Positions 9,527 to 37,593 of a DNA stretch of 37,593 bases are shown in pieces. The stretch covers positions 1-37,593 of IMG/VR virus record IMGVR_UViG_3300037246_000673; one strand, given 5' to 3'. The stretch is from a virus. The notes under the pieces are model-generated. The model searched no databases and was not told the DNA's origin. It was given only the letters and a program-made list of their open reading frames with translations. Positions within the stretch are counted from its first letter, which is position 1; each line of letters starts with the position of its first letter. The translations under genes and the position numbers were made by a program.

Positions 9527-9527
9527 C

Positions 9528-12500: not shown

Positions 12501-13124
12501 GGTGTCGTCGTCAAGTTCTGAATAGCTCTTCAAGTTCTTGAACCTATCAGGGTCTAGCATAGCTGTGATCTCTTCGCCTTCTTTTCCTAGCCCCTTGCCA
12601 AGCCACCTATCTATCTCCAACTTCTCGGCTGTGGTCCCTGCTCTCAGTGCGGTGAGACCCTTACCAACTCTCATAGTAGAGCGCGCCGCTAGTGTAGCAG
12701 GTAGGATCATTGTCCCAAGGAGGGAGGTGGTAGCGAGGGCGTTAACCCAGAGCGGTTCTTCTGACCACTGCTGTCGCAGGTTGTCTACGCTCCATGACCA
12801 GCCCTCGGTGTCGTGGGCGATGCCAATGACGGCGGCTTCAGGCCCGAACAGGAAGTCGAAGGCCTTGGTAGCCATACCATCTTGGGGGTCTTTGCTTAGG
12901 CGGGAGGATACCTGCCTAATGCTGACGGGCTTGTCGGGGTTACGAGGTTCGAAGTTCGTTATACCTGCGCGGGGAGGCAAGGGCTTAGAGCTAAAGATAG
13001 AAGGGCTCCTAACCTGCTCGTCCTTCTTGAACAGGCCAGCGGCCTCACCTTTCTTACTACCGATTTGGCCCCGGCGAGGCGCTACATAACCCTGCTCTGT
13101 AGTCCAGTCACTACCTTGTCCCAT
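9528..13124 (-). CDS. Large internal virion / DNA-ejection protein candidate
   Basis: A 1198-aa protein, the last large product of the operon, after tail and fibre genes, where podoviruses encode internal core or ejection proteins. It is mostly helical and charged, with a glycine-zipper-like hydrophobic stretch at about residues 873-913 (repeated GxxxG, GAVAGAA) suited to membrane insertion. A second hydrophobic patch (SLLGTMILPATLAA) lies near residue 135. A motif ALNPATHFQNLTGN recalls large virion-associated polyvalent proteins; I cannot confirm a domain. No lytic transglycosylase or protease motif is evident. GAGGA lies five bases before the ATG. A tape-measure role is unlikely because no long-tail genes are present. 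Confidence 0.68.
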   Translation of the reverse strand: MGQGSDWTTEQGYVAPRRGQIGSKKGEAAGLFKKDEQVRSPSIFSSKPLPPRAGITNFEPRNPDKPVSIRQVSSRLSKDPQDGMATKAFDFLFGPEAAVIGIAHDTEGWSWSVDNLRQQWSEEPLWVNALATTSLLGTMILPATLAARSTMRVGKGLTALRAGTTAEKLEIDRWLGKGLGKEGEEITAMLDPDRFKNLKSYSELDDDTIHMLRKQEFSNESYRKMKLRADRAEEVAGLDTIPLTKVESMRHAFDKRFSQTYNGMIQDAKNGDIKNQFHDMHQKLWQNDTMGTILREMPGIEQQDAIYGYILGEIAPGAGLAAKAAGRFGKLSAKNKEWADFYLNAARKRQDEMLESGFITQETYMRVGPAHLPALSKGTPDLGIGATTTHLIPIKPPKGAPKTRATGLVKEREKGLFGERTVFNPAGEEEFQTIAVKVANKPRLTSNTLKHRGGDHTDIFGRLEAGDLITDPAEMTVQGYINDGILHTNYQFVTDMLTKEGDKVWSLAKVESLGFDSRKMHKLGFVRMDTAGEGPTAILKRMIAKKTGLDEADLPWIDRNVFEGIFGKEGMMFQGDRITGNMMDVMTTIYKTMKTALNPATHFQNLTGNISFLYQAGFNSMAPKNLKLMGEMTHTFNDYAKMTKAANRAGLRGKDRFKGINLGKVRTGGKEFNMLDELTDPAVKELMEESAFESVEGSAHLLRLKDALRKEQYFTKGFIDQFLKVKDIAQGRGKVKWFDNMTKAYLAEDMIPKMTYFMHLRGKGLTRKAAVTEVARRLPMYGTVGSAIKYGRKFAFPWATFPAEALRITKNNLMDHPLRMIPWLRAPQISQTIMSGMGFAGSPQEVSDIKKQLPTWAQKYTTVVGTGKSLAGIAGAGTGGVVGAVAGAAMTKSAGGAYMGAAIGGVGLGLAAALGTDEEHGNQMRGALLDFLPHSTFFLKSTSTDFAGEGALPWRDASGLLEQMPADPLAILKPMVQAFTGEDGNGKPIEGGVGKTIAGILGFMAPPFLQKYGFRLTTPDVPLWGEPTGLTNISKALIDTGNAIDPMTGRPGSMTTDFLLNNVGIFKSYSATGEQQLANEQLAEKHLTKVRNHLSKNLDFHTSEGNEKDVIDILTDIQGTYTEQYLHSPAMAQNKYTEWLERHVKQLGQLPGLRGWSESELIERLQRAGKMAGGYRSKARQQLLQALRDAQRMKGEGG

Positions 13125-13132
13125 ACTATCCT

Positions 13133-14845
13133 CTAGATTTTAATGTCAAGTGCTTCGCCTTCGGCGCGCTCTTCTTCCGGGAAGAGTCCGGCATCGTCTG
13201 CCCTCTCCGGGTACACGTCCTCTCCGAACTCACTAAGGAAGTCGGGGATAAACTTACCAGCGAGGCTCTTAGCTGCTCGGCCTGTCGCACCAGTAGCCCG
13301 TCTGCGACGAGCAGCACCGGAGGGGGCCGGTCCAACCTCAAGGAACTTAGCAGCAGCCTTCCTAACAGAGTTCTTGATAGCAGCGATATAGGACTTAGTA
13401 GCCTTGTTGTCTGGATCGGCAGTGAGACCTCTAAGCTCCTTCAGATATGATTCGGTCTGTAGGTCTTGTCCTGTCTCCATAGCGTGAGGGAGCCACTCGT
13501 TAAGGACCCACCCAGCAACCTGATCCTTGTCCTGACCAAATCCCTTTTCAGACTCAGCGTACCTTTGTCCAGCATCAAGAGAGAGTGCTTCCCACTGCTT
13601 CTTGTACTGTCTAGTTTCCTTAGCATTAGGAGCCGTCGTGATGGCCATCTTAATCGGCTCCTTCTCCGCGGCGAATAGACCTCGGCTTTTCTGGCCAGCT
13701 TCAACATCAAGATTTGAAGTATCCACGTCACGTCTAAACTGTTCTCCACCTGCCTCTTCTAGAGCAGCACCAAGTATCAACTGCTCGATCTCGGCGTGTC
13801 TCTTTCGAAGCATGTCTTCTTGCCATGCCAGCACCTCTTTCGAGTGTGCATTATCATCTGTGATGGCGGGGTTTCTATTGCGCCAATCCGTAATGTATTG
13901 CTGTATGATCGGAGGCCCTAGACGCGCCATAGCGGGTGCTATTAGCTCCTGTCCTTCTGCTGTTCGAACATACGCCTCCATACCCGGAGCGCCTTCTCCT
14001 GTCATAGCTTCCTCAAGAGATTTGTACGGCTTACGTTCAGTCAGCGAACGCTCTTGTACCCTAGCTTGAGCGGTGTTCAACCTTGAAGCTGCCTTTCGCC
14101 CTTCTATCTCAGACTGAGCCTGAGCTGTGGACATGTCAGGCTTCTTGAACTGCGCTCCTAACATGGCAGTGGCGCCTTCCATCATCTGGGCGATCATGTT
14201 ATCTACGATAGGGTTGTTAGCATACTTCTGTGCCGCTGACTGCATCAGGCTGATGTGTGCTTCGGTCGCCTGATTAGCCATATCTCCTTCTAGCTGTGCC
14301 CGGTACCTTGCTGCCTTCACTTGGTCAGCAGGGTTAGTATAGTCCAGCATCACAGGGGTTCCGTCTTCCTCATGCCACCGTCCGTTCGTGAGCTTCTTGC
14401 CTAGATACTTGCCTTCTACTAAAAGCTTACTCATATTCTCTTGGAAGGGATCGAGGAGTTCTTTCTTGAAGTTCTCAAACTCGGCTGCGTGCCAACGATT
14501 CTCAAGGGCACCAGCAACCTGCTTTCCACTCTCGCTCCAGTTGTCGAGATAATCCTCGTTAGGGCGCAGGCCCCTAGGGGTGTACCCTCCACCCTCAAAC
14601 GCCTTACCGAAAGACCGAAATGCGCTCTCAGTCATAGCGCCAGACATTCCCTTGTAGATCTCTCCGAAGCCTGCTTTCAGTGCCCCACCAACGGTCTTCT
14701 TCTCAGGCCGTTGCTCAGGGACTAGACCTTCTTCTTTAATCTTATTCATAGATAGGCGATGCTGAGCGTCACGCATCTTCTGTGCGTCTAGTGCTTCTTG
14801 CCTGCCTTCTCTTTGTCTAAGTATTTGTTCGTCTGTCAGCGCCAT
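13133..14845 (-). CDS. Internal virion protein candidate (helical)
   Basis: A 570-aa hydrophilic, helix-rich protein with many Gln, Glu, Arg and Ala residues, consistent with coiled coil, for example in residues 1-45. No cysteine pattern, signal or catalytic motif is seen. The ATG at 14845 has AGGAG five bases upstream; a TTG 15 bases earlier is less likely. It lies between two other probable internal virion proteins and is co-transcribed with them from the promoter at 16086-16114. The position resembles the middle member of T7-type internal core genes (gp14-gp15-gp16 order), but I see no sequence identity to them. Confidence 0.62.
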   Translation of the reverse strand: MALTDEQILRQREGRQEALDAQKMRDAQHRLSMNKIKEEGLVPEQRPEKKTVGGALKAGFGEIYKGMSGAMTESAFRSFGKAFEGGGYTPRGLRPNEDYLDNWSESGKQVAGALENRWHAAEFENFKKELLDPFQENMSKLLVEGKYLGKKLTNGRWHEEDGTPVMLDYTNPADQVKAARYRAQLEGDMANQATEAHISLMQSAAQKYANNPIVDNMIAQMMEGATAMLGAQFKKPDMSTAQAQSEIEGRKAASRLNTAQARVQERSLTERKPYKSLEEAMTGEGAPGMEAYVRTAEGQELIAPAMARLGPPIIQQYITDWRNRNPAITDDNAHSKEVLAWQEDMLRKRHAEIEQLILGAALEEAGGEQFRRDVDTSNLDVEAGQKSRGLFAAEKEPIKMAITTAPNAKETRQYKKQWEALSLDAGQRYAESEKGFGQDKDQVAGWVLNEWLPHAMETGQDLQTESYLKELRGLTADPDNKATKSYIAAIKNSVRKAAAKFLEVGPAPSGAARRRRATGATGRAAKSLAGKFIPDFLSEFGEDVYPERADDAGLFPEEERAEGEALDIKI

Positions 14846-14856
14846 TCTGTCTCCTA

Positions 14857-16050
14857 TCAAGTATCCATTGACCAGCCTTCACCAGCAGAAGTTAGAGCCT
14901 TAGTGGGCCCAGATGTAGTGCTGTTGTAGGTTGGCTTCGTCCGACTCGACGAGTTAAGATACTCTAAACCCGATTTGAGTGTGTCGCCCATCGCCGCGCC
15001 TGCGCCGCCGCTCGCTGGTGCGGCTCCTGTGCCTCTAGCTGTATACCCACCTTGAGGATTGCCGCCAAACATCTGACCTAGCGCGCTATAGAGACCGCCT
15101 GCTTCCGCTCCCTTCGCTGCCCCTGTAGGCCCACCTGCTACGTACCCAACCACAGCACCTATGGCTGCGGGAACCAGCTTAACCAAACCTTCAACGAAGT
15201 TCTCGCCGAAGTTCACGGGTTGCTGGGTCATCTTGGTGTCGTAAGCATTCATGATAGCCGTATTGGCTAGTGTGCTAGCGTCGATCTGCAGGGCTGTCGT
15301 GCGCTGCATAGCGTCACGATACGAATCATTGACTAGAGGGAGCCCAGCCATGAAGGACGCTGACCCTGCTGCTACACGGTCAGCGTTCTGTCGGACGGAG
15401 TCGAAGAGAGCAAGGTTGGCTTGCCATGTCTCTTGGACTCTCGTTCTCATCGCACGCTCACCAGCGGCCAGCTCTTGTACTTCGTACATGGCTGCTCGTC
15501 GGGCGGTACCGCCCTTGGCGTATTGATTCTTTAGCTTCCGGACGGTGTCACGGAGCTGGAGGGCTGAGCCCTCGTTGATGGTACCTAGCACAGAGTTTTC
15601 CAGCATGTCCCAGGCAGGGCCTTCTCGGTTGAGAAGCTGCTCGGACTCTCTTACTCGCTGGCTCTGGATACGGAATTGGGCTGTGTCAGCGATGGCGTTG
15701 GCATACGACTCAGGGTCGAGGACGCCTTCTCGGGCCACACTTAAGATGCTGTTCTTAGCCGGGTCATTCGGGCCTAGGGAACGGAGATCCTGATCGGGCT
15801 GGGAGAGCCCTAATCCACTCGTGTCGAAGATGGACCCAGGGTCATCTACATTTCTTTGGTTCTGGTAGTCTGTATTGAATAGGTTGTCTGAGCCCAGCAT
15901 ACTCCAGACGCCCATCTTTGACTGCTCAGCGGCCATGTCTCTGGCTTGCTGAGCGGATACTGCCTCTGCTGCCCTGATAGCTGCGTGCTGCTGGCCTCCC
16001 GCTACCTCTTTGGCAGTTCTGATACCTTTCTTGTTTGAGAATATAGCCAT
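14857..16050 (-). CDS. Internal virion protein candidate with glycine-zipper segment
   Basis: A 397-aa protein beginning MAIFSNKKGIR, the same 11 residues that begin the basic protein at 31396-31962. The body is helical (Gln/Ala/Arg-rich), followed at about 287-327 by a hydrophobic Gly-rich stretch (LVPAAIGAVVGYVAGGPTG...) that could cross a membrane, and a Gly/Ser/Thr-rich C-terminus. The layout matches small ejection proteins such as T7 gp14, first of its kind in the operon. GAGG precedes the ATG, and a near-consensus promoter sits about 35 bases upstream. Function by position; the N-terminal motif may be a packaging or assembly signal. Confidence 0.65.
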   Translation of the reverse strand: MAIFSNKKGIRTAKEVAGGQQHAAIRAAEAVSAQQARDMAAEQSKMGVWSMLGSDNLFNTDYQNQRNVDDPGSIFDTSGLGLSQPDQDLRSLGPNDPAKNSILSVAREGVLDPESYANAIADTAQFRIQSQRVRESEQLLNREGPAWDMLENSVLGTINEGSALQLRDTVRKLKNQYAKGGTARRAAMYEVQELAAGERAMRTRVQETWQANLALFDSVRQNADRVAAGSASFMAGLPLVNDSYRDAMQRTTALQIDASTLANTAIMNAYDTKMTQQPVNFGENFVEGLVKLVPAAIGAVVGYVAGGPTGAAKGAEAGGLYSALGQMFGGNPQGGYTARGTGAAPASGGAGAAMGDTLKSGLEYLNSSSRTKPTYNSTTSGPTKALTSAGEGWSMDT

Positions 16051-24985: not shown

Positions 24986-24989
24986 TTAG

Positions 24990-25382: not shown

Positions 25383-25397
25383 TTTGTGTCTCCTTTA

Positions 25398-25790: not shown

Positions 25791-25805
25791 TTTATTTCTC
25801 CTTTA

Positions 25806-26198: not shown

Positions 26199-26210
26199 AT
26201 CGTTTCTCCT

Positions 26211-26606
26211 TTAATCGTTGTCAAGCATCCACTGTGGTTGCTTGATATTGTGTCGGCACCGATCACCTTCCTCAGCGCCGCAGCTATCCCAGGAACCCCA
26301 GTCTCCTCCAATCCGTACTCCTATGTAGAGTATGATCGGTGCGAGATTGAGCCACCAGGGAAGTAGCTCTCTTGCATGCTTACGTAGCGCTTTGTCAGCA
26401 AAGGCTCTAGCCTCATCGGTCATAGAATCTTTGCCATGACAGCGCGTGCAATAGTGCCAATCGTGAACCCTACCTGAGATCCACAACTGCCATCTTCGGT
26501 ACATCCAGTCAGGAAAACCACCAGAGAGACCATCATCCACAAAGTCAGGATAGTCTCTGCTGATGACGCTCATGTAGAATGCAACCTTCTCGATTGCCCA
26601 GCTCAT
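26211..26606 (-). CDS. Small protein resembling phage DUF1353-type proteins
   Basis: A 131-aa protein with GLSGGFPDW, then RVHDWHYCTRC, then EARAFADKALRKHA and finally ILYIGVRIGGDWG. The order HD-x-x-Y, AD-x-A-L and LY-x-GVR-x-GG is what I recall for the phage-encoded DUF1353-like group, whose function is unknown. The resemblance is by eye only. The segment around WWLNLAPIILYIGV is hydrophobic enough to associate with a membrane. Four cysteines and several histidines could bind metal. The start overlaps the lipoprotein-like gene's stop (ATGA). Confidence 0.55.
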   Translation of the reverse strand: MSWAIEKVAFYMSVISRDYPDFVDDGLSGGFPDWMYRRWQLWISGRVHDWHYCTRCHGKDSMTDEARAFADKALRKHARELLPWWLNLAPIILYIGVRIGGDWGSWDSCGAEEGDRCRHNIKQPQWMLDND

Positions 26607-27573: not shown

Positions 27574-28782
27574 TTAGTAGGTCGGCGTAGTCAGACCAGT
27601 CAGCTTAGCTGTCTGGTTAATCATCCGCGCCACGTTCTCACCGTAGTACTTCATGAGAACCGTGAATGCGTCCTGACCCGGCACCCACGCCATATTGACT
27701 CGCTCGTCAATAGACAGGGGACGGACAACGCCACGCTCAATCGCGCCGAGGTTCAGTTGGAAAACCTGATCCGGCAGAGCGGCCCACGAGATCAGCCAGG
27801 GACGGCCTTCAAACGTAGTCAGCTCTTGCTGAGCACCCAACTCCAAACGCATATCGTTGAAGCGACGGAACGGAAGGGAGATCTCGGTGTAACGATCATA
27901 CTGTTCCCAGTTACTGATCATCGCGAAACCGTCCAGGCTTCCAACGTCCGTCTCAACCAACAGCTGGCGTCGCAGGCGGCGAAGCAGGGCTTCGTCAAGA
28001 GCAACATCACCAGCAGCGATTACCTTCGACTGAAGGATCGGATACGTGGTTCGAGAGAGGTTGTAGATTGTTCCGGTGGCCGACACGATTGCCGGGAGAC
28101 CCAGGGCTGTCACTTCGGCCGGGGCCGCAGCTTCGCTCTGTTCACCAGAAATGTAGATACCATCGTCAGTATTCCAAGTTACGGAACTAGATACCGTAAC
28201 CGTGGCGCCTGAGATGTCTTTCGCTGTAACAGTTACCGGTCCAAAGGTGCGGAGACCGGAAACGTTGTTCAGACCCACAAGAACCTGACCAGCGCGGAAC
28301 GGGCGAGCATCGTCAACCGCGATTGCGGTTCCCGTTGCGCCTGTGCCACAGTTAGTCAGACGACCCGTGCCGTCTCCCCGAAGGAAGTCAACTTCGAATC
28401 GTGCGCCCGCACGCTTGACAGCCTGACTAATCGCGTCAGTAATGCCAGCCGCAAAAGCGTCTTCCCCGCCACGAGCCGAAACTGCTTCGGCCAGACCGGA
28501 GAACGTTACTGTGTGGTAATACTTCTTGGGTCGAACACGCGCCTGCTTCACATTCTCATTAGACGCCGTGGGAAGGACGTTGTCGTCCGTAGCACGCCAT
28601 CCGCCGCCTGCTTCATTGCCGGAAATACGGACCGCGAAGTAAGCACCGTCACCCGAGGGGGTGAAGTTGCTATTCTCACGCAGTTGCGTATAGATCGGCG
28701 CAGACAGATTTTGCATCTGAGCGATGAAGTCAACGATGTATCGACGCAGAAGCATGTCACCAAGGGTATTAAATGTAATCAT
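27574..28782 (-). CDS. Major capsid protein, HK97-type fold
   Basis: A 402-aa protein with the N-terminal arm (LLRRYIVDFIAQMQNLSAPIYTQL quoted in part: MQNLSAPIYTQL), then YFAVRISGNEAGGGWRATDD, a KYYHTVTFSGLAE beta segment, and ARFEVDFLRGDGTGRL. A long beta-rich domain contains the sequence LDGFAMISNWEQYDR. Length, order and the acidic coiled scaffold gene directly before it fit the HK97-like coat of podoviruses and siphoviruses. There is no clear maturation-protease gene adjacent. Separate from the downstream genes by two hairpins that may tune expression. The coat assignment is firm; fold details are inferred. Confidence 0.85.
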   Translation of the reverse strand: MITFNTLGDMLLRRYIVDFIAQMQNLSAPIYTQLRENSNFTPSGDGAYFAVRISGNEAGGGWRATDDNVLPTASNENVKQARVRPKKYYHTVTFSGLAEAVSARGGEDAFAAGITDAISQAVKRAGARFEVDFLRGDGTGRLTNCGTGATGTAIAVDDARPFRAGQVLVGLNNVSGLRTFGPVTVTAKDISGATVTVSSSVTWNTDDGIYISGEQSEAAAPAEVTALGLPAIVSATGTIYNLSRTTYPILQSKVIAAGDVALDEALLRRLRRQLLVETDVGSLDGFAMISNWEQYDRYTEISLPFRRFNDMRLELGAQQELTTFEGRPWLISWAALPDQVFQLNLGAIERGVVRPLSIDERVNMAWVPGQDAFTVLMKYYGENVARMINQTAKLTGLTTPTY

Positions 28783-28809: not shown

Positions 28810-29769
28810 CTACTCCTTTTGATGTGCTAACCGGATTGCCTGTGCCATCACCTTATTGAAATCTTCATCGGACAGCTCTGGATCAATTGATACAGTTCCG
28901 TCTTCGAATTCAGTTTCTCGGAGATCGCCCCAAGGCAGATCCATCAGCTCACCTAACTCCTCTTCAGGAGTTTGAGTATCAATGGGCTCTAAGTCTTCTG
29001 TCAATAGATCAACTTCTTCCGTGTCAAACAATGCTCCGCGTGGCATTCCGTACCTGTCAATGGTCTCTTGAAAACCCTCTGTGAGGATCTCGGCAAGATG
29101 ATCAGGGTGCTCTACTGCGGCATCCCAGTCCACCTTCTCTGTAAAGAGGTCATTGATAACGGCGAGGTCTTCGTCGTTATACTCTTCAGGTAAAGCTTGC
29201 AACAGCCTTTCAGCGATCGTATCAGCCTTGCTTATGAGCTGATCAGCTTGTAGATCGGCCTGAGTGTCTCGCAACTCGTCTTGGGCATCCTCAAACATCT
29301 CTCGAGTAGCCTGGAGTGCGTCCTCCGGATCCAACGTACCTTCGTCCACCGCCTCGTCGATCCCTTTCAAACGGGCATCGATAGCTAAAACGTGATCTTT
29401 CATCGCAGGGTCATTCACGAAGCTCTTGATCTCGTTTAGGGTCTGGACATCGCTGTCTCTGCTTTCCAGAAGGTCTTGCATTCTAACTAGCGCATCTTGA
29501 GACTCAGCGAGCTGGTCTCTCATCTCTGCCTCGGCCTCTCGGACCTCATGCAGAGCGTTGTTGACTTCGTTAAAACGCGACTGAGGGATACGGTTCTCTC
29601 CACCTTCTCCACCTTCTTCAGCTTCGTTGGCATCGAGTTCTTCCAATTCCTCAAGAACTTCTTCGTCGGTCATGTCTTCCACATCTGCTACGATCGATGA
29701 CTCCGTAGCTGCCGCCTCAAGTCTTTCCTCTAGGGTAGGCTCATTTACATCGAGTTCTTCTTCTTCCAT
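28810..29769 (-). CDS. Scaffold-like protein
   Basis: A 319-aa, very acidic protein (long Glu/Asp runs near residues 1-55 and again at the end), with a central coiled coil rich in Leu, Arg, Glu and Gln (about 75-190) and few aromatic residues. It directly precedes the major capsid gene, the normal scaffold position. The ATG at 29769 is preceded by AAAGGAG; an in-frame ATG 69 bases upstream gives an atypical hydrophobic extension and is less likely. The gene is the first of the operon from the promoter at 29880-29908. It probably organises coat assembly and is then released or degraded. Confidence 0.8.
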   Translation of the reverse strand: MEEEELDVNEPTLEERLEAAATESSIVADVEDMTDEEVLEELEELDANEAEEGGEGGENRIPQSRFNEVNNALHEVREAEAEMRDQLAESQDALVRMQDLLESRDSDVQTLNEIKSFVNDPAMKDHVLAIDARLKGIDEAVDEGTLDPEDALQATREMFEDAQDELRDTQADLQADQLISKADTIAERLLQALPEEYNDEDLAVINDLFTEKVDWDAAVEHPDHLAEILTEGFQETIDRYGMPRGALFDTEEVDLLTEDLEPIDTQTPEEELGELMDLPWGDLRETEFEDGTVSIDPELSDEDFNKVMAQAIRLAHQKE

Positions 29770-29879
29770 CTTTATCTCCTTTAACGACTGGGATATGTCG
29801 AAATAGAAGAATCCTTTACGTGGGAGAGCGGGCCACAACGCAGCTAACTACGGTAGAATTCTTCACACTCTCTCTATTA

Positions 29880-29908
29880 ATTATAGGAATTTCTACAACA
29901 ATGTGCAA
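29880..29908 (-). promoter_or_regulatory. Sigma70-type promoter for the scaffold/capsid operon
   Basis: On the minus strand, TTGCAC (29903-29908) and TATAAT (29880-29885), 17 bases apart, the spacer ending GAAATTCC as in the promoter at 16086-16114. Expected start near 29873, giving a leader of about 100 bases before the scaffold ATG. It lies immediately downstream of a terminator, so the structural operon is insulated from the basic-protein operon. Confidence 0.82.
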
Positions 29909-29920
29909 CTAATTCCATAA

Positions 29921-29968
29921 GATAAAGCCACAGCAGGGATAGGAGGGAGAGCAAACCCCCGCTGTGGC
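29921..29968 (-). terminator. Rho-independent terminator after the basic-protein operon
   Basis: On the minus strand, GCCACAGC...GCTGTGGC (29927-29934 with 29961-29968), extended by a run of G opposite C with one bulged base, forms a strong GC hairpin. It is followed by TTTATC at 29921-29926. It is 34 bases past the stop of the gene at 30003, and just upstream of the next promoter. A clear end of transcript. Confidence 0.82.
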
Positions 29969-30002
29969 CAGCCTATGTATCGTAACACACAGGCAAAATC
30001 TG

Positions 30003-30401
30003 TTATTGAGCGGCCCTACCTACTTTCAGGACCGCTGCGGATAAGATCTTGTTCTTAGCTAAGGAGGCAGTAGCGGGGCTCATAGGCTCAGAATCGTCAT
30101 ACCAGCCCTTCTGCTCCCTCTGTGCCTTCCCACGCCTGGATCTCACAGTCTCCTTCATATTAGGACGGCCCTTATTTGATCTTTGTCCTACCCTCTTCTG
30201 AGCCGACTTGACTCTTTCAGTTCTCTCAGCATCAAGGTCTCGGGCGCCAGGGTTCCGGTTCAGGAACTGCTCGCTAGACATGAAGCTATCCAGGCTCGCA
30301 GCGTTGCGGGACTTCCTAGGGGGCCTGACGGGATTGGACTCTCGGGACGTAGGGGTGCTAGCTGTCTTGCCCGCTCCTTTTAGTAGGTCGGTATACGGCA
30401 T
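30003..30401 (-). CDS. Basic protein, last gene of its operon
   Basis: A 132-aa polar, Arg/Lys-rich and probably disordered protein (RPPRKSRNAAS, AERTERVKSAQKRVGQRSNKG, RSRRGKAQREQKG) with a slightly hydrophobic C-terminal helix (LAKNKILSAAVLKVGRAA). No zinc motif. The ATG overlaps the TGA upstream (TGATG). It is followed by a strong terminator. Charged composition suggests binding to nucleic acid or to acidic partners, possibly inside the head. Unknown function. Confidence 0.62.
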   Translation of the reverse strand: MPYTDLLKGAGKTASTPTSRESNPVRPPRKSRNAASLDSFMSSEQFLNRNPGARDLDAERTERVKSAQKRVGQRSNKGRPNMKETVRSRRGKAQREQKGWYDDSEPMSPATASLAKNKILSAAVLKVGRAAQ

Positions 30402-30613
30402 CAGTACCCTTCTTCTTCTAGTAGATCAAGCTGCCGCGAAGTGCCGATACCTAGGCCTCCTCGCCCTTGCTTGGCTCCTTCCTTGATGAGGTCTTTAACA
30501 TCTTCCTTCTTCTTGATCTTCTTCTTCTCTTTCTCCGCTGCCTTGACAGCATCCTCTTCAGCATGCTTGTCCATCAGTGCGAAGGCTTCTTCCATCGTAA
30601 GATTATCTGCCAA
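30401..30613 (-). CDS. Small charged protein, probable TTG start
   Basis: A 70-aa protein with alternating acid and base runs (EKEKKKIKKKEDVKDLIKEG), helical in the first two-thirds, followed by GRGGLGIG and an acidic end. AAAGGAG is correctly spaced for the TTG at 30613; an ATG six codons on (MEEAFALMD) has no good ribosome site. It overlaps the upstream gene's end. Unknown role, perhaps a structural partner of the adjacent basic proteins. Confidence 0.58.
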   Translation of the reverse strand: MADNLTMEEAFALMDKHAEEDAVKAAEKEKKKIKKKEDVKDLIKEGAKQGRGGLGIGTSRQLDLLEEEGY

Positions 30614-30836
30614 GGGGTGCTCCTTTACGTTTCTTCAGCTTCTCTTCGACCTTCCCGGCCACGCCGTTGTCTTGCTCATTCAGCGCCATAGCAGCCGAGC
30701 CGGGGAATAACCCCGGCTGGGCCGCAGGTGCGGGAGGGGCATCGTAGTCTGAGCCACGATCGAGACCCATCTTCTCAGAGAGGAGAGTGGGTTTCTTCTT
30801 CTTCTTTGCATTAGGCTCAGTCTCTTTGCCAAACAT
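30603..30836 (-). CDS. Small Lys-rich protein
   Basis: A 77-aa protein with Lys runs at both ends (AKKKKKPTLL and EKLKKRKGAPLGR) and an Ala/Pro-rich middle. The start overlaps the upstream stop (TAATG) and its own stop overlaps the next start region. It is probably disordered. I see no recognisable domain. It belongs by position and composition to the basic-protein operon. Confidence 0.6.
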   Translation of the reverse strand: MFGKETEPNAKKKKKPTLLSEKMGLDRGSDYDAPPAPAAQPGLFPGSAAMALNEQDNGVAGKVEEKLKKRKGAPLGR

Positions 30837-31372
30837 TACTTCTCTCCGTAGTGACCGGGTCGGCCTGTGTGCATTGAGACACCCTTACGGATAGCTTTCC
30901 TCTTCTTACGTGCCAGCTCTCGCCTTGCCTTAGCCGCTGCCTTGTTACTGGTACGCTTGGCCGCGTTGGCAAGCTTCTTAGCCGCTCTCTTCTTCTTTCG
31001 AGCAAGAACCTTTCTCGCTCTTAGAGAAGCTTTACTCGGCGCCTTGGTCGGCGTCTTCGGCTTGATCACGGTCGGCTTCGGAGCAGGCTTGTTCTTGTCT
31101 GAAGCTGCGTACTCTTTTTGTTTAGCATCTATGTGTTCTTGCGGTACTCGTAGATTTTGCATCTTCGGAGCAGGCTTCGGCTTCGGAGCAGGCTTGGGCT
31201 TCGGCTTGTTAGCCTCCGCTGCTGCTTTCTTTCTCGCTGCGGCTAATGCCGCACGGCGCTTATCGTTAGCGATCTCAGCCGCTGTCTTTCCGCTGGGGCG
31301 GGTTGCGCCAGTTTGGCTCCCGGAACCAAAGACTCCGGGGTTACTTCCTTTGAGCATACTTGATGCGCTCAT
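30836..31372 (-). CDS. Lys/Pro/Ala-rich histone H1-like protein with shared C-terminal motif
   Basis: A 178-aa protein. A short Ser/Gly N-terminus is followed by Lys-Pro-Ala repeats (KPKPAPKPKPAPK; PAPKPTVIKPKTPTKAPS) and then an Arg/Lys/Ala helix (KVLARKKKRAAKKLANAAKR). The end is RKGVSMHTGRPGHYG, shared with the next gene upstream. This composition is that of histone H1 C-terminal tails and bacterial H1-like proteins, which condense DNA by charge. GGAGGT precedes the ATG within a repeated leader. It may coat packaged DNA, but RNA binding or capsid-interior scaffolding are alternatives. Confidence 0.66.
   Translation of the reverse strand: MSASSMLKGSNPGVFGSGSQTGATRPSGKTAAEIANDKRRAALAAARKKAAAEANKPKPKPAPKPKPAPKMQNLRVPQEHIDAKQKEYAASDKNKPAPKPTVIKPKTPTKAPSKASLRARKVLARKKKRAAKKLANAAKRTSNKAAAKARRELARKKRKAIRKGVSMHTGRPGHYGEK
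30858..30896. repeat. 39-bp direct repeat, copy 1
   Basis: Identical over 39 bases to 31418-31456. It encodes the shared C-terminal motif of two adjacent basic proteins in the same frame. Recombination between copies would delete 560 bp and join the two genes in frame. See copy 2. Confidence 0.85.
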
Positions 31373-31395
31373 TGTGTTACCTCCATATAGGGTTC

Positions 31396-31962
31396 TTACT
31401 TATTACCGTAATGTCCAGGTCGGCCTGTGTGCATTGAGACACCCTTACGGATAGCTCGTCTCTTGCGGGCTTCGAACGCCGGGCCAGAGTTCCTTCTCTG
31501 CTCTGCTTTCGTTCCAGCTTGAGTGCTACGAGTGGGCTTCTTACCAGGCTTGCGCGCTGCTCGTTGCCGTTGGCGTTCACGGCGTGCATTGGCACGGGGG
31601 TTGTTTCGTGTCCCGTCCCAGTTCTTGCCGTCTATGATAGCCGCGTGCCCAATTCCTTCTGAGCGCTGACCCGGCTTGCCTCTACGACGCAACTTACCAC
31701 GACCCGGCTTGCCCTTACGCGCAGTCTTTCGCCTATTCCTCAGAAGCTTCCGCAAGCGGCGTTTCAACTTACCGCCTAGCCTGCTCTTCGGAATCTTGCG
31801 CTTCGGCACAGGTCGTTTGCCCTCGGGAACGTAGGGAGGCGGACCTTCGCCTCGCTTCGGTGGCGCCCACTTCAGTCCCGGGATCGGCACGCGAAGCCCA
31901 CGCTTCGGGTCGGCGGTGCCTTTGCGTTTGCGTATACCTTTCTTATTAGAGAAAATAGCCAT
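31396..31962 (-). CDS. Arg/Gly/Pro-rich basic protein with virion-protein-like N-terminus
   Basis: A 188-aa protein starting MAIFSNKKGIR, the same as the 397-aa internal virion protein at 14857-16050. The body is dense in Arg, Lys, Gly and Pro (RRLRKLLRNRRKTARKGKPGRG), and the end RKGVSMHTGRPGHYG is shared with the downstream neighbour. There are no acidic stretches or cysteines. It is the clearest candidate for a packaged basic protein because it joins a possible virion-targeting start to a nucleic-acid-binding body. The GAGGTG ribosome site overlaps the stop of the preceding gene. Function inferred. Confidence 0.68.
   Translation of the reverse strand: MAIFSNKKGIRKRKGTADPKRGLRVPIPGLKWAPPKRGEGPPPYVPEGKRPVPKRKIPKSRLGGKLKRRLRKLLRNRRKTARKGKPGRGKLRRRGKPGQRSEGIGHAAIIDGKNWDGTRNNPRANARRERQRQRAARKPGKKPTRSTQAGTKAEQRRNSGPAFEARKRRAIRKGVSMHTGRPGHYGNK
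31418..31456. repeat. 39-bp direct repeat, copy 2
   Basis: Perfect copy of 30858-30896 in the same orientation, encoding the C-terminal motif RKGVSMHTGRPGHYG. Flanking bases differ after about two bases at one side (CGTAATGTCCA beside CGTAGTGACCG) and immediately at the other. Recent duplication or gene conversion is more likely than chance. Confidence 0.85.
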
Positions 31963-31967
31963 GACTA

Positions 31968-32216
31968 TTATTTCACCTCAGGATTACGCTGCGCCTTAGC
32001 ACGAGCACGATGCGCGGCGCGCAGACGCTTCTTCATCAAGCGCTGTCGAGCACCGCCTTCTGTGGAGTTGCGACTACCACCACGTCGCTCGCGGTTAGCG
32101 TCACGAGTCCGTCGCTTCATCTTCCGACGACGACCGTCGTTGCCCTTGCCTTCGTTACCATCATCGATGGCCTTGGGCGGTCCTGCTTTACCAAATCTTC
32201 CTGTTGAATATGCCAT
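31968..32216 (-). CDS. Small Arg-rich protein
   Basis: An 82-aa protein with a short neutral start (MAYSTGRFGKAGPPKAIDD), then strongly Arg/Lys-rich (GRRRKMKRRTRDANRERRGG; RQRLMKKRLRAAHRARAK). GGAGGT in the repeated leader precedes the ATG. It is probably disordered or helical on binding; composition suits nucleic-acid binding. No recognised domain. Confidence 0.62.
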   Translation of the reverse strand: MAYSTGRFGKAGPPKAIDDGNEGKGNDGRRRKMKRRTRDANRERRGGSRNSTEGGARQRLMKKRLRAAHRARAKAQRNPEVK

Positions 32217-32243
32217 TGTGTAACCTCCTTTACGGGTTCGTTC

Positions 32244-32882
32244 TTATCGATTCGCTTGGCGAGCACGACGCGCTGCTACGCGAGCCCTGAGTACTCTCTG
32301 TGCTGCCGCGCTCTGGGGTGCCCGAGCACCTCGTCCTTGACCACGTCGTCCACCCGGTGCGCCTGCGCGACGGGGAGCGGCTGCTGCTGCCTTGGCTGCA
32401 TTGATCTCGGCACGAGACTGGTACAGGGTATCACTACGATCTTGGTTCACGTTGCGCTTCGTGATCTGCTTGTTGACACGAGTCCGAGCCTTGTCCTTAT
32501 CAGCGAAGCGCTCGACATCCTTAGCGTCTTTCCTGGCTCGACGAGCAACAACCTTCGAACTCGGCGCGCCCTTACGCGCGTCTAGCTTCTCACGTCGCTT
32601 CTGCTTGCCAGACACTCGAACGTTGGTGTCCTTCTTCTTGAAGAGCTTCTTAACAAGCCGGAGTCCTTCACTGATTCCACCGGTCGCTACTGCGGCGCCG
32701 CCTCGCGACACAATCTTACCAGCCTTACCACCGATAAGTTTGCCAGCAAGATTACTCATTCCTGTAACCGGGTTTGTATACTTGTGAACCTTCTTCGCTA
32801 TCTTGAAGCCTTTCTTGTGAGCCTTGAGCCCCCACTTAGCTGCTTTCTTGTGTTTCTTAAGTACTCGACGTGTAAATGCCAT
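32244..32882 (-). CDS. Lys/Arg-rich protein with KKKxTNV motif
   Basis: A 212-aa protein: Lys-rich amphipathic start (RVLKKHKKAAKWGLKAHKKGFKI in part), a Gly/Ala hydrophobic segment near residues 40-70 (LAGKLIGGKAGKIVSRGG), then VKKLFKKKDTNV (about 75-86) and a long Arg/Ala/Gly tail. The KKKxTNV block recurs in the next gene upstream, so they are likely paralogues. The ATG at 32882 follows GGAGGT in the repeated leader. The upstream in-frame extension lies inside the other gene. The hydrophobic segment between basic parts hints at membrane or DNA contact during ejection. Confidence 0.66.
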   Translation of the reverse strand: MAFTRRVLKKHKKAAKWGLKAHKKGFKIAKKVHKYTNPVTGMSNLAGKLIGGKAGKIVSRGGAAVATGGISEGLRLVKKLFKKKDTNVRVSGKQKRREKLDARKGAPSSKVVARRARKDAKDVERFADKDKARTRVNKQITKRNVNQDRSDTLYQSRAEINAAKAAAAAPRRAGAPGGRRGQGRGARAPQSAAAQRVLRARVAARRARQANR

Positions 32883-32904
32883 TGTGTTACCTCCATTAGG
32901 GTTC

Positions 32905-33294
32905 TTACTTGTTAGCCTTCCGCTCTCTGCGGGCTGCTTTCCTTGCTGCTCGCTTCTCATCGCGAGCCGTTCGTCTATCAATCTGAGACTGCACGCGTTT
33001 CGCTGCGCGCGGGTGCTTCACATCATACGCAGCATGCTTCGCATCTACCTTAGCTCTGTGCGCGTCAACCTTGGCCTGCTGTTTCTCTGAGCGGCCTGCG
33101 CCCTTATTATGCTTAGCTGCTGCTCTATCAATTCTAGCACGACGCCACTTCTTAGAAGAGCGTGTCACATTTGTATTCTTCTTCTTAAGGAGAATCTTGA
33201 CAATGTTTTGAATGGCACCCGTAGGGGTAGCCCACTGCGCGTTGGCGTAGCCTTTCTTAATCTTGTCTTTAGTTGAGTCTTTAGTTCCTTTCAT
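32905..33294 (-). CDS. Lys/Arg-rich protein with KKKxTNV motif, paralogue
   Basis: A 129-aa protein of which 41 residues are Lys or Arg. IVKILLKKKNTNV (about 31-43) aligns with LVKKLFKKKDTNV in the downstream protein, followed in both by S-x-K-x-x-RR-x-x-x-D-R/A. The C-terminal half has a KVDAHRAKVDAKHA short repeat. GAGGA is spaced correctly before the ATG. It looks like a shortened relative of its neighbour. Unknown function. Confidence 0.65.
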   Translation of the reverse strand: MKGTKDSTKDKIKKGYANAQWATPTGAIQNIVKILLKKKNTNVTRSSKKWRRARIDRAAAKHNKGAGRSEKQQAKVDAHRAKVDAKHAAYDVKHPRAAKRVQSQIDRRTARDEKRAARKAARRERKANK

Positions 33295-33301
33295 ACTATC
33301 C

Positions 33302-33640
33302 TCACGGTACGTACTTGTTGTAGTAAGCCTTCAAGGTCATGTTACGCTGCTTAGCGTTCTGCATGAAGAACATCCGATCGTCGTCGGTGTACTTGGAGTC
33401 GGTTCTCTTCTCCTTCATATCCTTAAACGTGCCTCGTTCCGCCTTTCTTTCATCTCGCGCAGTCTTACGCGCATCACGCTTAGCGATACGTTCGGCTTTT
33501 CTTGCCGCCGCTGTATCCATGCGTTCCTGCCTCTTGGCCGGGGCCTTGTCGTATCTCTTCTGCCAATTCGCTTGCCGCTTAGCCGCAGCAGCTGCCTTAC
33601 GCTCGGCTCGTCTCTCACTTATTACGTTGTTAACTGCCAT
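33302..33640 (-). CDS. Arg/Lys/Ala-rich helical protein
   Basis: A 112-aa protein of which 33 residues are Lys or Arg. Residues 1-80 are an almost continuous Ala/Arg/Lys/Glu helix; the C-terminal 30 residues (DDDRMFFMQNAKQRNMTLKAYYNKYVP in part) are different, with aromatics, and may be a small folded or binding element. GGAG is eight bases upstream. Second gene visible in the operon, after the giant protein. No recognised family. Confidence 0.63.
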   Translation of the reverse strand: MAVNNVISERRAERKAAAAAKRQANWQKRYDKAPAKRQERMDTAAARKAERIAKRDARKTARDERKAERGTFKDMKEKRTDSKYTDDDRMFFMQNAKQRNMTLKAYYNKYVP

Positions 33641-33642
33641 GG

Positions 33643-36600
33643 TTAAACTCCTCTGGGCCGACGGCCCATCTTCTTAGCATCTTTGATTCGTTTGTCTCTC
33701 TTAGTCTTAGCTTCCGCCTTCTGTCGATCCAGCATAACTCCAGCATCCTCTAGCGAAAGCTTTCTGTTTCGGTTACGACGGGTTTGGGTAGCACGCTCAA
33801 CGGTTCCGTACTTCGCTTCCATGACCGCCTTCTCTGAGATCTCCTTCTGTACCTGGGAGTCCCATTGATGCTTGGTCTTGGCTACTACCTCACCGACCTT
33901 GAAGGCAGTGAACGCCATCGCGGGGATAGGCATCACCTTCTCCGCGGCTACCAAGAAGGGTGTACCTGCTCCAGCCGCCGCGAGGCTCGCTCGGCGCGCG
34001 GCCCATGTAGCTACAGAGAACTCAGTCACGCCAGCAGCCGTATCCATACCAACCTCAAGGGCTGTTTCCTGAGCGGCTCTGATCTTCTCACGCTGCGTGC
34101 CTTGTGTCTCTGATGCAGCCTTTGCTCCTTCGGCAACACCGAAGATACCAGCGAGTGCTGCGACCGGGGCACCGAACCTACCTGCTCCCCTAGCGAGACC
34201 AGAGCCTTTCTTTCCAACGACCTGTCGGCCTTGTGCCTTGCCAGCCTCAGCTGCCAGTTCAATTCCCGGACCCTTGATAACCTGAGCCACCCTACCTGCT
34301 AGGGCCCTGGCCTGCTTGAATCTCCTATTAGCTTCTGTAGCGAGGTCACCAATCGCACGGCCGAAGTTCCTACCACGCGGGTGCCTAACCGGAACTTCCG
34401 GAGTGTACTCAGGCTTAACCTGCTGGTACGTAACCGACCCTTGCCTGGGTGAAGGCTGATCGGGCGCTCTCCGCTCTTCGGGAGTTTGCCGTCTTGAAGG
34501 CGTCCTTGGCGCAGCGGGTTTCGGGTCTACAAATCTCTCACCGCCCTCGACAGTAACCTTATGACCACGACGCTCCACGTCAGGTATGGTGACAGCACCC
34601 TTATCCTTTCCTTCTTCGTACTCTGCTCTCGCCGACTGCCAGGGGGCTACTGCGCCTTCCGCTTGCAGCTTCGCTCCCGGCTGGGCGCGTACGGGTAGCG
34701 GCTCTTTAGGTTTGTCCTCTACGAGATACTCCAACTCTCGTTCACGGGTAAGCCTATCACGATCCACGTTCGGAGCGTTAGCTTCACCCTCTCGGCGAGC
34801 CTTAGCTTCGCCACGCTTCTCACGCTCCATGCGGTTGAGAAGGTTTTGAGCATCCTTAGATCCTAGCTCAGCTCGCGCCTTTATCTCTTCTACATCTTGA
34901 GCATCAAGACCAGCAGAGAAGCTCTCGCCTCGCCGTTCAAATGACGCAGGCTTCCACTCCTCTCGCATTTCGAGGTCACTCTCTGCGACAGGCGCGAGCG
35001 GGGGACGAATCTCGCTTGTGACTATCTTCCCACGCCGGTTCTCTCTCCCTCGCCGGGAGGGACTCTTCTTGGCAGCAGCCTCTCGTTCTTCTCCTTCTAG
35101 TACTACCACTGCCTCACCCTTAGATAGGCGGGAGGTGTAGTCTCGACGCTCTTGTAGACGTCTCTCTTCTGTGTTGCGACGATCATCAATCTCACCCAAC
35201 TCTTCATTAGTGTACCAACCGACACCTTCATTGCTGGGAAGTATACCACGTTGTGCTGCCTCTGAGTGGCCCCTGCTTTCCGCAGCTGTCTTAGCCTCCT
35301 TAGTGGCCTGGGCTTCAAGTACCTTTACCTTCTTCCGGTGCTCGGCATCGATCTCCTTTTGGATCTTCTCAGCCTTGGCCTCAGCGTCTTCACGCTTCTG
35401 AGCCTGTACCTCAGGGTCTTGGCCTGACGACACAGCATCCATCTTCACAGTAAGGTCGGTCAGCTCTGCATCAGTGAGGCCTGCTCTCTGTGCGAGATCA
35501 GACTCAGGAGTGCGGATGCCCTGTCCCTCAGCCAGCTCACGGACGTTCACATTAGAGGCTCCGCGTTGGTGGTAGCCTGTGGTGGCTTGACCAGCGCCAA
35601 CCTCAACTCCTGCCTTCTTAGCGGCCGCTGTTCTTTCCTTCTTGGCTTCGACTTCTCTCTTGGCTGCTTCTTCCTGGGCCTCTGTTCCGGGGCTAATCGT
35701 TTGGCCAGGAGTAGTTGCTCCCGTACCAATACCAGCTCTCGGGGCTACATACGTGCGCCCAGGAATCTCAAACTTGGCTTCCTTAGCTGTCTCTACCTTC
35801 TCGTTGAACTCAGTCCAGTACCTACGGTTAGCGCGCCGCCGCTTACTCTTGTTGATAGTAGAGCCACGAGTCTGACGGGTTGGCTTGTCAGCTCCTGTCT
35901 CGGGAGCTTGGTTCCTCAGCTGCGCGTTCTTAGCTTTCTCTTCCGCCAGATCCTTCTTGATACGAGCGGCTTCCAAAGCCTCAGCGTGACTCTTCAGATC
36001 GTCGGGGCTTAGGCCTCGCTTGGTGTCCTTGGGAGGAGCATCAACTTGCTTCTTCTCTTGCGCGAGCTGCTTAGCTAGCTCCTTCTTCTCCAGGGCCTCT
36101 GCTTTCTCTGCGTCTACCGGAGGCTGGTCTGTCGGTTGTCTAGCTACGAGCTTAGCCTGCTTAGCCTTCTCAGCAGCCAGATCCTTCTTCAGCTGTGCGC
36201 GATCACGCGCCGCCTTCTGATCGTCTGCCTGGGTCGGCAGATCACCAGCCTCAGCCGGGGGGCTTACGGGCTGTGTCGCTCTCGGTGCGCGGTCAGCGGG
36301 CCTGGGCTCATCTACCGGGGTACGGATCACGGTCTCACCTGTACCACGAGGATCGGTACCTCGGGCACGTCGAGTGCTTCTCTGGGGCGCAGTGGCACCT
36401 TCCGTAGCCTTGGCTCGGGTAGGTTGATCTCTACGGCCGCTCTTGCCACGTCGCGGGCCAACACGATTCTCGGGCTTGGCGTCCACTTCCATCTTTTCGA
36501 TAGCCTGATCCAGCTTCACTTCGTCTACGGCTGCAACGCTCTCTCTCGCTTGGTCAAGAACCTTAGCCTTGCCATAGCGGGTGGGGCGCTCACCTGTTTC

Positions 36601-37593
36601 GATCAGGTACTCAAGCTCACCACGGAGAACATCAGCACGCCTACCTGTCTTCGGTAGGGCGTCGGATGCTGCTCGGGCACCTTCAACGTTACCGGCCTTC
36701 AGTATGGCCTTCGCATTGGCACTCACCTTCTGGCGAGTATCGATGTCCATCTCTACTTCCGCGGGCTGTGTAGCCGGGGCGGCGGGAGCCTTGGGGGCCT
36801 TCGGTGCTTTGGGGGTAGTAAGCTTAGCCTTCTTCAAGGCTACTTCGGTACGCGTCCGTTCCTTAGCAGAAGCCTTGCCATCGGGCGGCAGTCCACCCTC
36901 TGCTAGAGAGGCGGTCATACCTTCGACGTTACCGGACTTCCTGGCTTCGCGGGCTGTGTTCAGTGAGGTCTTGCGGGTGTCACTGTCCCATCTCTCCAAG
37001 GAGACTTCGGCTGTGGGGGGCTTGACTGCTGCCCTAGCTGCCTTCTTCTCGGCGGCAGCGACGGGGTCGGTCGCTCGTTCTACACCAGCGCCTGCTGCCT
37101 TAGCAGCTTTCTGAGCGGCGTGAAGAACACCACGCGCGGGAGCGGTGCCCACATGCACTGCACCACGGGCCACTCTACTTACACGGCCACGGGGTTTCGC
37201 GGGGGCGGGCTCAGCTTCAGGAGCAGGAGCGCGGCGCGCTTGTGCGGCCCTCTTCTCAGCTACCACGGCCGGGTCTGAGAACGCTTCCTTTATACGCTGT
37301 ACGCGGCCTACCTTAGCGGGCCTCGCAGTAACAACGGTCTCTACCGGCTTCATCTTCGGAGCACGGTGATCGACCTCTACAATCTTAGTGGGGGTCACCT
37401 TACCTATGGGCTTACGTCGCCCAGGAGAAACGTCTACTGTCGTACCACGCTGGCCCTTGTCGGCCCAGGTACGTATCTTCGTCGGGGGTCTCTTCAACTC
37501 GCCTGTCTTAGCCAGCTCACCTTCCACTCTGCCTGCGCCGCTTCTGACACGAGCTACTTCTAGCACGCCTCTCTGCGTGGAGGTTAGGGGCTT
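33643..37593 (-). CDS. Giant charged, repetitive protein (5' end outside the window)
   Basis: At least 1307 residues; the frame stays open through the window edge, and a GTG at 37566 has no convincing ribosome site, so the N-terminus is probably missing. Coordinates here run to the edge. Residues (from 37566) about 187-245 and 267-325 are a diverged repeat centred on DTRK/DTRQ...GNVEG. Around 463, 497 and 537 are three copies of a Lys/Glu coil (LKKDLAAEKAK; ELAKQLAQEKK; IKKDLAEEKAK). Most of the rest is Arg/Glu/Ala/Pro-rich and likely disordered. About 1132-1222 is a Gly/Ala hydrophobic stretch (FGAPVAALAGIFGV...TPFLVAAEKV) that may insert in a membrane. A structural or ejected virion protein is plausible; I see no enzymatic motif. 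Confidence 0.62.
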   Translation of the reverse strand, partial: KPLTSTQRGVLEVARVRSGAGRVEGELAKTGELKRPPTKIRTWADKGQRGTTVDVSPGRRKPIGKVTPTKIVEVDHRAPKMKPVETVVTARPAKVGRVQRIKEAFSDPAVVAEKRAAQARRAPAPEAEPAPAKPRGRVSRVARGAVHVGTAPARGVLHAAQKAAKAAGAGVERATDPVAAAEKKAARAAVKPPTAEVSLERWDSDTRKTSLNTAREARKSGNVEGMTASLAEGGLPPDGKASAKERTRTEVALKKAKLTTPKAPKAPKAPAAPATQPAEVEMDIDTRQKVSANAKAILKAGNVEGARAASDALPKTGRRADVLRGELEYLIETGERPTRYGKAKVLDQARESVAAVDEVKLDQAIEKMEVDAKPENRVGPRRGKSGRRDQPTRAKATEGATAPQRSTRRARGTDPRGTGETVIRTPVDEPRPADRAPRATQPVSPPAEAGDLPTQADDQKAARDRAQLKKDLAAEKAKQAKLVARQPTDQPPVDAEKAEALEKKELAKQLAQEKKQVDAPPKDTKRGLSPDDLKSHAEALEAARIKKDLAEEKAKNAQLRNQAPETGADKPTRQTRGSTINKSKRRRANRRYWTEFNEKVETAKEAKFEIPGRTYVAPRAGIGTGATTPGQTISPGTEAQEEAAKREVEAKKERTAAAKKAGVEVGAGQATTGYHQRGASNVNVRELAEGQGIRTPESDLAQRAGLTDAELTDLTVKMDAVSSGQDPEVQAQKREDAEAKAEKIQKEIDAEHRKKVKVLEAQATKEAKTAAESRGHSEAAQRGILPSNEGVGWYTNEELGEIDDRRNTEERRLQERRDYTSRLSKGEAVVVLEGEEREAAAKKSPSRRGRENRRGKIVTSEIRPPLAPVAESDLEMREEWKPASFERRGESFSAGLDAQDVEEIKARAELGSKDAQNLLNRMEREKRGEAKARREGEANAPNVDRDRLTRERELEYLVEDKPKEPLPVRAQPGAKLQAEGAVAPWQSARAEYEEGKDKGAVTIPDVERRGHKVTVEGGERFVDPKPAAPRTPSRRQTPEERRAPDQPSPRQGSVTYQQVKPEYTPEVPVRHPRGRNFGRAIGDLATEANRRFKQARALAGRVAQVIKGPGIELAAEAGKAQGRQVVGKKGSGLARGAGRFGAPVAALAGIFGVAEGAKAASETQGTQREKIRAAQETALEVGMDTAAGVTEFSVATWAARRASLAAAGAGTPFLVAAEKVMPIPAMAFTAFKVGEVVAKTKHQWDSQVQKEISEKAVMEAKYGTVERATQTRRNRNRKLSLEDAGVMLDRQKAEAKTKRDKRIKDAKKMGRRPRGV

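Follow-up and report, generated by a model that had tools for sequence, protein, structure and literature searches.

The window analyzed here is the whole of a 37,593-base stretch of viral DNA (IMG/VR record IMGVR_UViG_3300037246_000673). Its minus strand bears a block of late genes, with a run of nine small genes between an incomplete giant gene and the putative scaffold gene. We propose that the run proteins are probably internal head proteins, loaded into the procapsid through short terminal handles, the acidic scaffold being the likely partner, and that at least some of them leave the head with the DNA. Gene position, charge, selection, conserved terminal tags and a transglycosylase domain in one relative can be read directly from the sequences of this lineage, whereas we infer that the proteins enter the procapsid, are present in virions, bind DNA and are ejected. 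The genes of the run and the giant are as follows (lengths in amino acids, aa; net charges of the predicted proteins).

33302..33640, minus strand: b1, 112 aa, net +17; C-terminus NAKQRxMxLxxYYxKYV kept in four phages
32905..33294, minus strand: b2, 129 aa, net +30; paralogue of b3
32244..32882, minus strand: b3, 212 aa, net +50
31968..32216, minus strand: b4, 82 aa, net +19; no relative found
31396..31962, minus strand: b5, 188 aa, net +54; tags at the N- and C-terminus
30836..31372, minus strand: b6, 178 aa, net +41; Lys-Pro-Ala repeats
30603..30836, minus strand: b7, 77 aa, net +5; conserved KKKxxLLSxKMGLDxG
30401..30613, minus strand: b8, 70 aa, net -3; conserved C-terminus GLGxxxxxLLxxxD
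30003..30401, minus strand: b9, 132 aa, net +15
33643..37593, minus strand: giant charged protein, 1307 aa from a GTG at 37566; frame open at the contig end, N-terminus missing

An original prediction, made from the DNA alone, had described these nine open reading frames. Their coordinates hold, with b3 starting at 32882 and not at 32981; its counts of Lys plus Arg (33 of 112 residues in b1, 41 of 129 in b2) were exact, and the Lys-Pro-Ala repeats that it mentioned lie in b6. Its description of the set as mostly Lys/Arg-rich fits six proteins, which are strongly basic (28-34% Lys plus Arg, net +17 to +54), and does not fit the other three, since b7 and b9 are mildly basic and b8 is slightly acidic. 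Of the 43 window genes, six reach at least 28% Lys plus Arg, and every one of these belongs to the run (P = 3e-5); three of the four such genes of a complete relative also lie in its run (201 genes, P = 2e-4). The clustering of basic genes in the run thus exceeds chance. Cysteine is absent from the 2,496 aa of the run including the giant, compared with 101 cysteines in 9,647 aa elsewhere in the window, and most of the run is predicted to be disordered by a charge-hydropathy index. When the nine proteins and the giant were scanned against PHROGs and Pfam, no credible match emerged.

Searches with the capsid protein recovered 31 and then 49 viral loci (relatives carry L or G numbers below), and one further match on a contig binned in a deltaproteobacterial metagenome-assembled genome (MAG); the matches in isolated phages were distant ones alone. 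Shocker and the Manatee Spring podoviruses, the nearest named phages, were considered as close kin and rejected as too far off, and Shocker has a single non-basic gene from portal to scaffold. End overlaps of 121 and 87 base pairs mark two relatives, of about 119.4-119.5 kb, as circular, so the window should represent about one third of the genome. About 40 relatives also have, from portal to scaffold, a run of small genes that are often basic. The order in the complete relative G002 is portal, a 63-aa basic gene, a 206-aa gene, a cREC gene, the giant (1484 aa, net +125), genes of 160 aa (+45), 72 aa (+21), 84 aa and 65 aa, scaffold and capsid. Among relatives whose locus includes the portal, 6 to 15 genes separate portal and scaffold, a count that is uncertain by a gene or two because the genes were called by a simple purpose-written script and several loci are fragments. 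This interval is usually net basic; its charge reaches about +340 at the high end and falls below zero in a few distant relatives.

The run genes bear Shine-Dalgarno sites, have orthologues and, in pairs of relatives, show ratios of non-synonymous to synonymous substitution rates (dN/dS) of 0.05-0.45 for the basic genes versus 0.04-0.08 for the capsid protein; they are therefore real genes. The comparisons indicate that the run proteins diverge fast yet remain basic under purifying selection. Singletons make up 111 of the 314 run proteins compared; b1, b7 and b8 have relatives in four or five phages, and b3 and b4 have none by the same criteria. Neighboring genes in the window have been duplicated (b2 and b3, and the C-terminus of b5 and b6), and a linker and ribosome-binding-site (RBS) cassette, AAGAACCC..GGAGGT(A/T)ACACAATG, is found in three copies and is absent from the rest of the window.

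32880-32894, minus strand: cassette preceding b3
32214-32228, minus strand: cassette preceding b4
31370-31384, minus strand: cassette preceding b6

Such cassettes and duplications, together with the many singletons, would be expected if the run consisted of low-complexity by-products, that is, duplicated and weakly constrained basic reading frames maintained by recombination and having no specific role. The dN/dS values well below 1, terminal tags that are rich in synonymous change but conserved in amino acids, and the conserved motifs in b1, b7 and b8 argue against this explanation, which we consider extremely unlikely.

The evidence on loading comes from these terminal tags. Locus by locus, we compared the ends of all proteins, using body similarity and shuffled ends for control, and found that a shared terminus on unlike bodies is a recurring pattern across loci. 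The tags of the window, and the putative ejection proteins to which one of them leads, are located as follows.

31930..31962, minus strand: N-terminal tag MAIFSNKKGIR of b5, identical to the N-terminus of the 397-aa protein (16018-16050)
31396..31467 (b5) and 30836-30907 (b6), minus strand: C-terminal tag (R/K)KR(R/K)AIRKGVSMHTGRPGHYG(N/E)K
14857..16050, minus strand: 397-aa protein, putatively gp14-like and ejected; Gly-rich hydrophobic segment, FSNKKGI-type start
9528..14860, minus strand: putative gp15/gp16-like ejection proteins, 575 and 1198 aa, so assigned from order, size and hydrophobic Gly-rich segments

The two copies of MAIFSNKKGIR differ at five codons and at no amino acid (pN/pS, the corresponding ratio of non-synonymous to synonymous differences, 0.05; P = 1.7e-4, where all P values for tags are approximate, being Fisher tests on fractional counts for pairs picked for their like ends). 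The one step that counts nominally as non-synonymous leads from one Arg codon to another. A FSNKKGI-type start is kept in the homologues of the 397-aa protein in G002, L006, L003 and L061; it is thus a property of the ejection-type protein that b5 displays as well. In L002 the homologue of b5 shows a weaker likeness, with the start MALFSSKKLIQ. The C-terminal tag covers 23 residues common to b5 and b6 (pN/pS 0.31, P = 0.03). Excess synonymous change, at P values from 0.04 to 2e-9, was likewise seen in four relatives. In L053 the giant has a C-terminus in common with two proteins, one of 189 aa from the run and one of 220 aa that is encoded outside the run among tail-adaptor genes, in front of a nozzle-like gene (closest pair P = 5e-5). 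The giant and a 108-aa protein share a terminus in L050 (P = 1.4e-4), N-termini are common to proteins of L055 (P = 2e-9), and a terminus is shared by unlike bodies in L009 (P = 0.04). A single N-terminal capsid-targeting sequence (CTS) of the T4 type across the whole run was considered and rejected, as the N-termini of run pairs were no closer than shuffles in the first control.

The putative ejection genes close the late block, the 397-aa gene preceding the 575- and 1198-aa genes as in the T7 gp14-gp15-gp16 arrangement. None of the three proteins had a profile match to known ejection proteins at E 0.001, a PDB search with the 397- and 1198-aa proteins returned nothing, and the nine run proteins and the giant had no profile homology to known ejection proteins. 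The run of L061 contains a 147-aa SLT transglycosylase (PF01464, 2e-26; phrog_342, 1.6e-20), and phrog_342 is an internal virion protein with an endolysin domain. This protein was the sole informative match in a PHROG and Pfam scan of 80 run proteins of relatives; the remaining Pfam matches were DUF1353 and a weak fusellovirus VP2, most PHROG families listed were lysis or transglycosylase families, and the T4 internal protein family was not found among the 80.

The giant of the window has a net charge of about +65, is mostly predicted to be disordered, and carries Gly/Ala hydrophobic segments and a C-terminal KYGTxExAT motif. Full-length homologues of 1189-1533 aa occur in L002, L003, L004, G001 and G002. 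The giants contain 19-residue Gly/Ala stretches that are hydrophobic by hydropathy, near both ends in several of them, and their KYGTxExAT module recurs at a small run protein of L050. A Pfam scan of the window giant, whose N-terminus is missing, found no enzymatic or other domain.

A second possible source of handles is the capsid protein itself.

27574..28782, minus strand: major capsid protein, 402 aa (phrog_14242, E 1.5e-16), with the N-arm TLGDMLLRRY
28810..29769, minus strand: putative scaffold, 319 aa, net -76, mostly helical

The protein encoded immediately before the capsid gene is presumed to be the scaffold from its position, acidity and mostly helical character; it had no family match, and a fold search with its model gave no significant match. 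TLGDMLLRRY is almost invariant among the capsid proteins of the lineage. When the first 26 residues of 931 proteins were scanned against the capsid N-terminus with shuffled controls, three run proteins, besides one capsid protein itself, scored above all shuffles. They are a 70-aa protein of L016 (MITFGNLGGMLMRNY), a 107-aa protein of L028 (MSMTMATLGEQVMRKY) and a protein of L056 if started at an upstream ATG (MENVATMGDMLMRQY), and each of the three can be aligned to M-TF-TLGDMLLRRY in register, beginning at the first Met. No copy was found among about 560 proteins outside the runs, and none was expected from the shuffles; a 289-aa protein of L004 scored within chance and was not counted. The coat N-arm of P22 is bound by the C-terminal helices of its scaffold (PMC9965877), and thus, by analogy, a small basic protein that starts with the capsid arm would be a scaffold ligand.

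Scaffold binding is also what would be expected of the main rival to the cargo reading, a role in the assembly core only. The proteins would then enter the procapsid with the scaffold to shape it or balance its charge and, as part of the T4 core does, exit either ahead of packaging or while it proceeds. Consistent with this, the run (about +290) lies directly before the acidic scaffold, the capsid N-arm copies would bind the scaffold, and scaffold acidity and run charge show a weak negative correlation. Such a role leaves unexplained the ejection-protein end on b5, the SLT transglycosylase in a run and the hydrophobic segments of the giant. Moreover, no S78-family prohead protease was found in six records, in a search with a positive control. 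We regard a core-only role as unlikely.

The original prediction had also offered a nucleoprotein core. In such a core, many packaged copies would condense the genome like adenovirus protein VII or histones of the H1/Hc1 type. Very high Lys plus Arg contents, Lys-Pro-Ala repeats and disorder speak for such a core, as does an H1-like protein, of unknown function, reported in other environmental phages (PMC12619734). The suggestion gained no support, as no match to histone, Hc1 or another DNA-binding family appeared in Pfam at E up to 1, and the sets of relatives range from about +340 to below 0. The set of the complete relative G002 amounts to about +230 against about 239,000 phosphates, and therefore neutralization of 10% would need about 100 copies of every protein, the giant included. 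A condensing core is thus very unlikely; nucleic-acid binding by the run proteins is plausible from their composition.

Host-takeover factors, made late, acting in the producing cell and not packaged, are a further explanation. It would agree with the fast turnover of the run, its lack of recognizable families and the presence of a cREC gene, predicted to serve in cyclic-phosphate processing in counter-defence (PMC7824862). In a comparison of 314 proteins the cREC domain protein was the most widespread family (24 loci), and every one of the 24 portal-bearing loci in the family table has its gene in the portal-scaffold interval.

L002 1310-1693, L053 557-943, L050 3095-3478 and others: cREC protein (PF20274, phrog_1479)

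The head-operon location, the capsid-arm and ejection-protein tags and the SLT domain point away from host takeover, and the opposite-strand region of G002, a more usual place for such genes, already holds many small unrelated ones; we judge this explanation quite improbable. That a predicted counter-defence enzyme sits inside the head operon of 24 relatives is an observation in its own right.

Several points weigh against assigning the run to the head interior. Several tags are local, a pattern scan of other viral contigs for the b5/b6 tag having found none, and some reflect recent duplication, the copy in L060 being uninformative as it shows no synonymous change. Copies of the capsid arm are limited to 3 of about 38 loci, the phage of the window not being among them, and the scaffold and ejection proteins are assigned from order, size and composition. 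Run charge is only weakly related to the acidity of the scaffold (rho -0.45, P = 0.02, n = 26, ignoring kinship). Finally, an AlphaFold2 model of the last 330 residues of the window giant is poor (confidence score pLDDT 45), a result in line with either disorder or a shallow alignment.

Taken together, we favor a mechanism in which the nine genes and the giant encode a fast-evolving late protein set that would enter the procapsid before DNA packaging. The set most likely rides inside the head, and at least some members may be ejected with the DNA. Short terminal peptides would be the loading handles, taken, depending on the phage, from a copy of the capsid N-arm, from the start of the gp14-like ejection protein, or from an end shared across the set and the giant alike. 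Binding to the acidic scaffold may, in addition, involve the basic bodies. The cationic disordered chains would lie among the DNA during packaging, and threading through the portal would be possible because the run proteins are disordered and free of Cys. The giant with its Gly/Ala hydrophobic segments would act at the envelope. The claim of packaged or ejected proteins in the original prediction has thus gained partial, independent backing from the head-operon position in about 40 relatives, the tags, the SLT domain and the hydrophobic segments of the giant. More tentatively, these phages might possess a modular head-loading code, in which copies of the capsid arm or the ejection start turn disordered basic proteins into cargo, the scaffold or portal machinery would take in the tagged proteins, and bodies are swapped in a payload island that bears cREC. 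A loading tag that derives from the capsid N-arm or from an ejection protein would be readable from sequence; tag-dependent loading could then be tested with co-expressed capsid and scaffold, giving a route to head cargo in uncultured phages.

The run is separated from the scaffold gene by about 230 nucleotides (nt) of conserved non-coding DNA with two elements.

29926..29994, minus strand: two strong terminator-like hairpins between run and scaffold
29804..29908, minus strand: promoter TTGCAC-17-TATAAT with a 73-nt pseudoknotted leader (29804-29876)

The hairpin pair (z -5.9) agrees with the terminator that had been predicted before the capsid operon. With the promoter, it parts the run from the scaffold, which agrees with one side of the proposed insulated operon of run and giant; at the 5' side, the giant reading frame of the window reaches the contig end, and the same-strand genes of relatives (the cREC gene, small genes and the portal) continue upstream. 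The hairpin loop UCUCCCUCCU is kept in six of seven aligned relatives despite divergent flanking proteins. The leader begins at the expected start of the scaffold/capsid transcript and forms three helices and a pseudoknot that joins its 5' end to a hairpin loop. Covariation in seven sequences supports all four helices (11 pairs changed on both sides versus 3.4 in shuffles). With E values of up to 1, a covariance model matched 16 times ahead of the capsid region, a single time in the complete G002; a rule-based search recovered this layout in the majority of 35 loci, with 16 beating all 60 shuffles. The leader has no match in Rfam; mRNA stability, autoregulation and put-like antitermination are candidate roles.

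Other genes of the window and its relatives are recorded here. Tandem genes of about 124-131 aa follow the capsid gene (24489-26606, minus strand), three of them, of 130 aa, being clear paralogues, and they possibly encode head fibre or decoration proteins. A glycosyltransferase cluster lies at 2487-8563 on the plus strand and includes a 1042-aa protein with three glycosyltransferase regions. The scaffold-capsid interval of the MAG-binned relative L050 holds a 225-aa basic reading frame (9257-9934) that resembles a putative homing endonuclease. Genes of G002 for a ClpP-type protease and for an RtcB RNA ligase (L037:651-1241 and L037:18058-19311) lie outside the head operon, and its minus strand at 44977-88327 (L037-L039) encodes 21 small proteins with a similar CxxC-x(4-6)-P-x-(E/G)-(I/M) motif near the end, mostly 22-34 residues from the C-terminus of mostly unlike bodies.

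For a long time T4 has served as the principal case of a phage whose small basic proteins are directed to the head by a short peptide. Its internal proteins are present at about 300 copies each, carry a short targeting peptide on divergent bodies, co-purify with the core protein gp22 and are poorly conserved (PMC9026906); they are also ejected. The original prediction knew of no matching described system, and this was half right, as the T4 internal proteins with their capsid-targeting sequences are a close functional parallel. The run resembles IPI-IPIII in its small basic proteins, poor conservation and short terminal peptides (in the run, putative targeting signals) shared by different bodies. 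It differs in having no sequence match to IPI-IPIII or Alt (Pfam, PHROG), in tags at either end that are copies from capsid or ejection proteins, whereas T4 uses one N-terminal CTS, and in comprising many more genes plus a giant, whose products are presumed virion components. No protease of the gp21 type that could remove a tag was detected, S77 having been searched with no working control, and the ClpP gene of G002 lies away from the head genes. By analogy, then, the run would work like the T4 internal proteins but is not a member of that family; if the proposal is true, it is an independent, larger and more variable case.

The ejection proteins of T7 are gp14, gp15 and gp16, and those of P22 are gp7, gp16 and gp20. 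The late operon, the Gly-rich hydrophobic segments of the giant and the 397-aa protein, and the SLT domain in the run of one relative recall these proteins. Unlike them, the run is small, basic and disordered, is additional to the putative trio at 9528-16050 and has no profile homology to them. The crAss001 phage, also of about 100 kb, stores virus-encoded proteins in its head for ejection through the tail (PMC10172136), as may be the case here; its cargo proteins are large (60-277 kDa) and some are related to RNA polymerase (PMC10172136), and no homologue of them was found here. Polyvalent proteins, which join several enzymatic domains in one giant polypeptide, and DarA of P1 offer the parallel of a giant late protein near portal genes that is thought to be packaged and injected (PMC5512222), as might hold for the giant here, in which Pfam detects no enzymatic domain (its N-terminus is missing). 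Histone H1-like proteins (PF07432) of moraphages (PMC12619734) are likewise basic and come from environmental phages; the proteins described here have no PF07432 or histone match, and it is the whole run that lies in the head operon.

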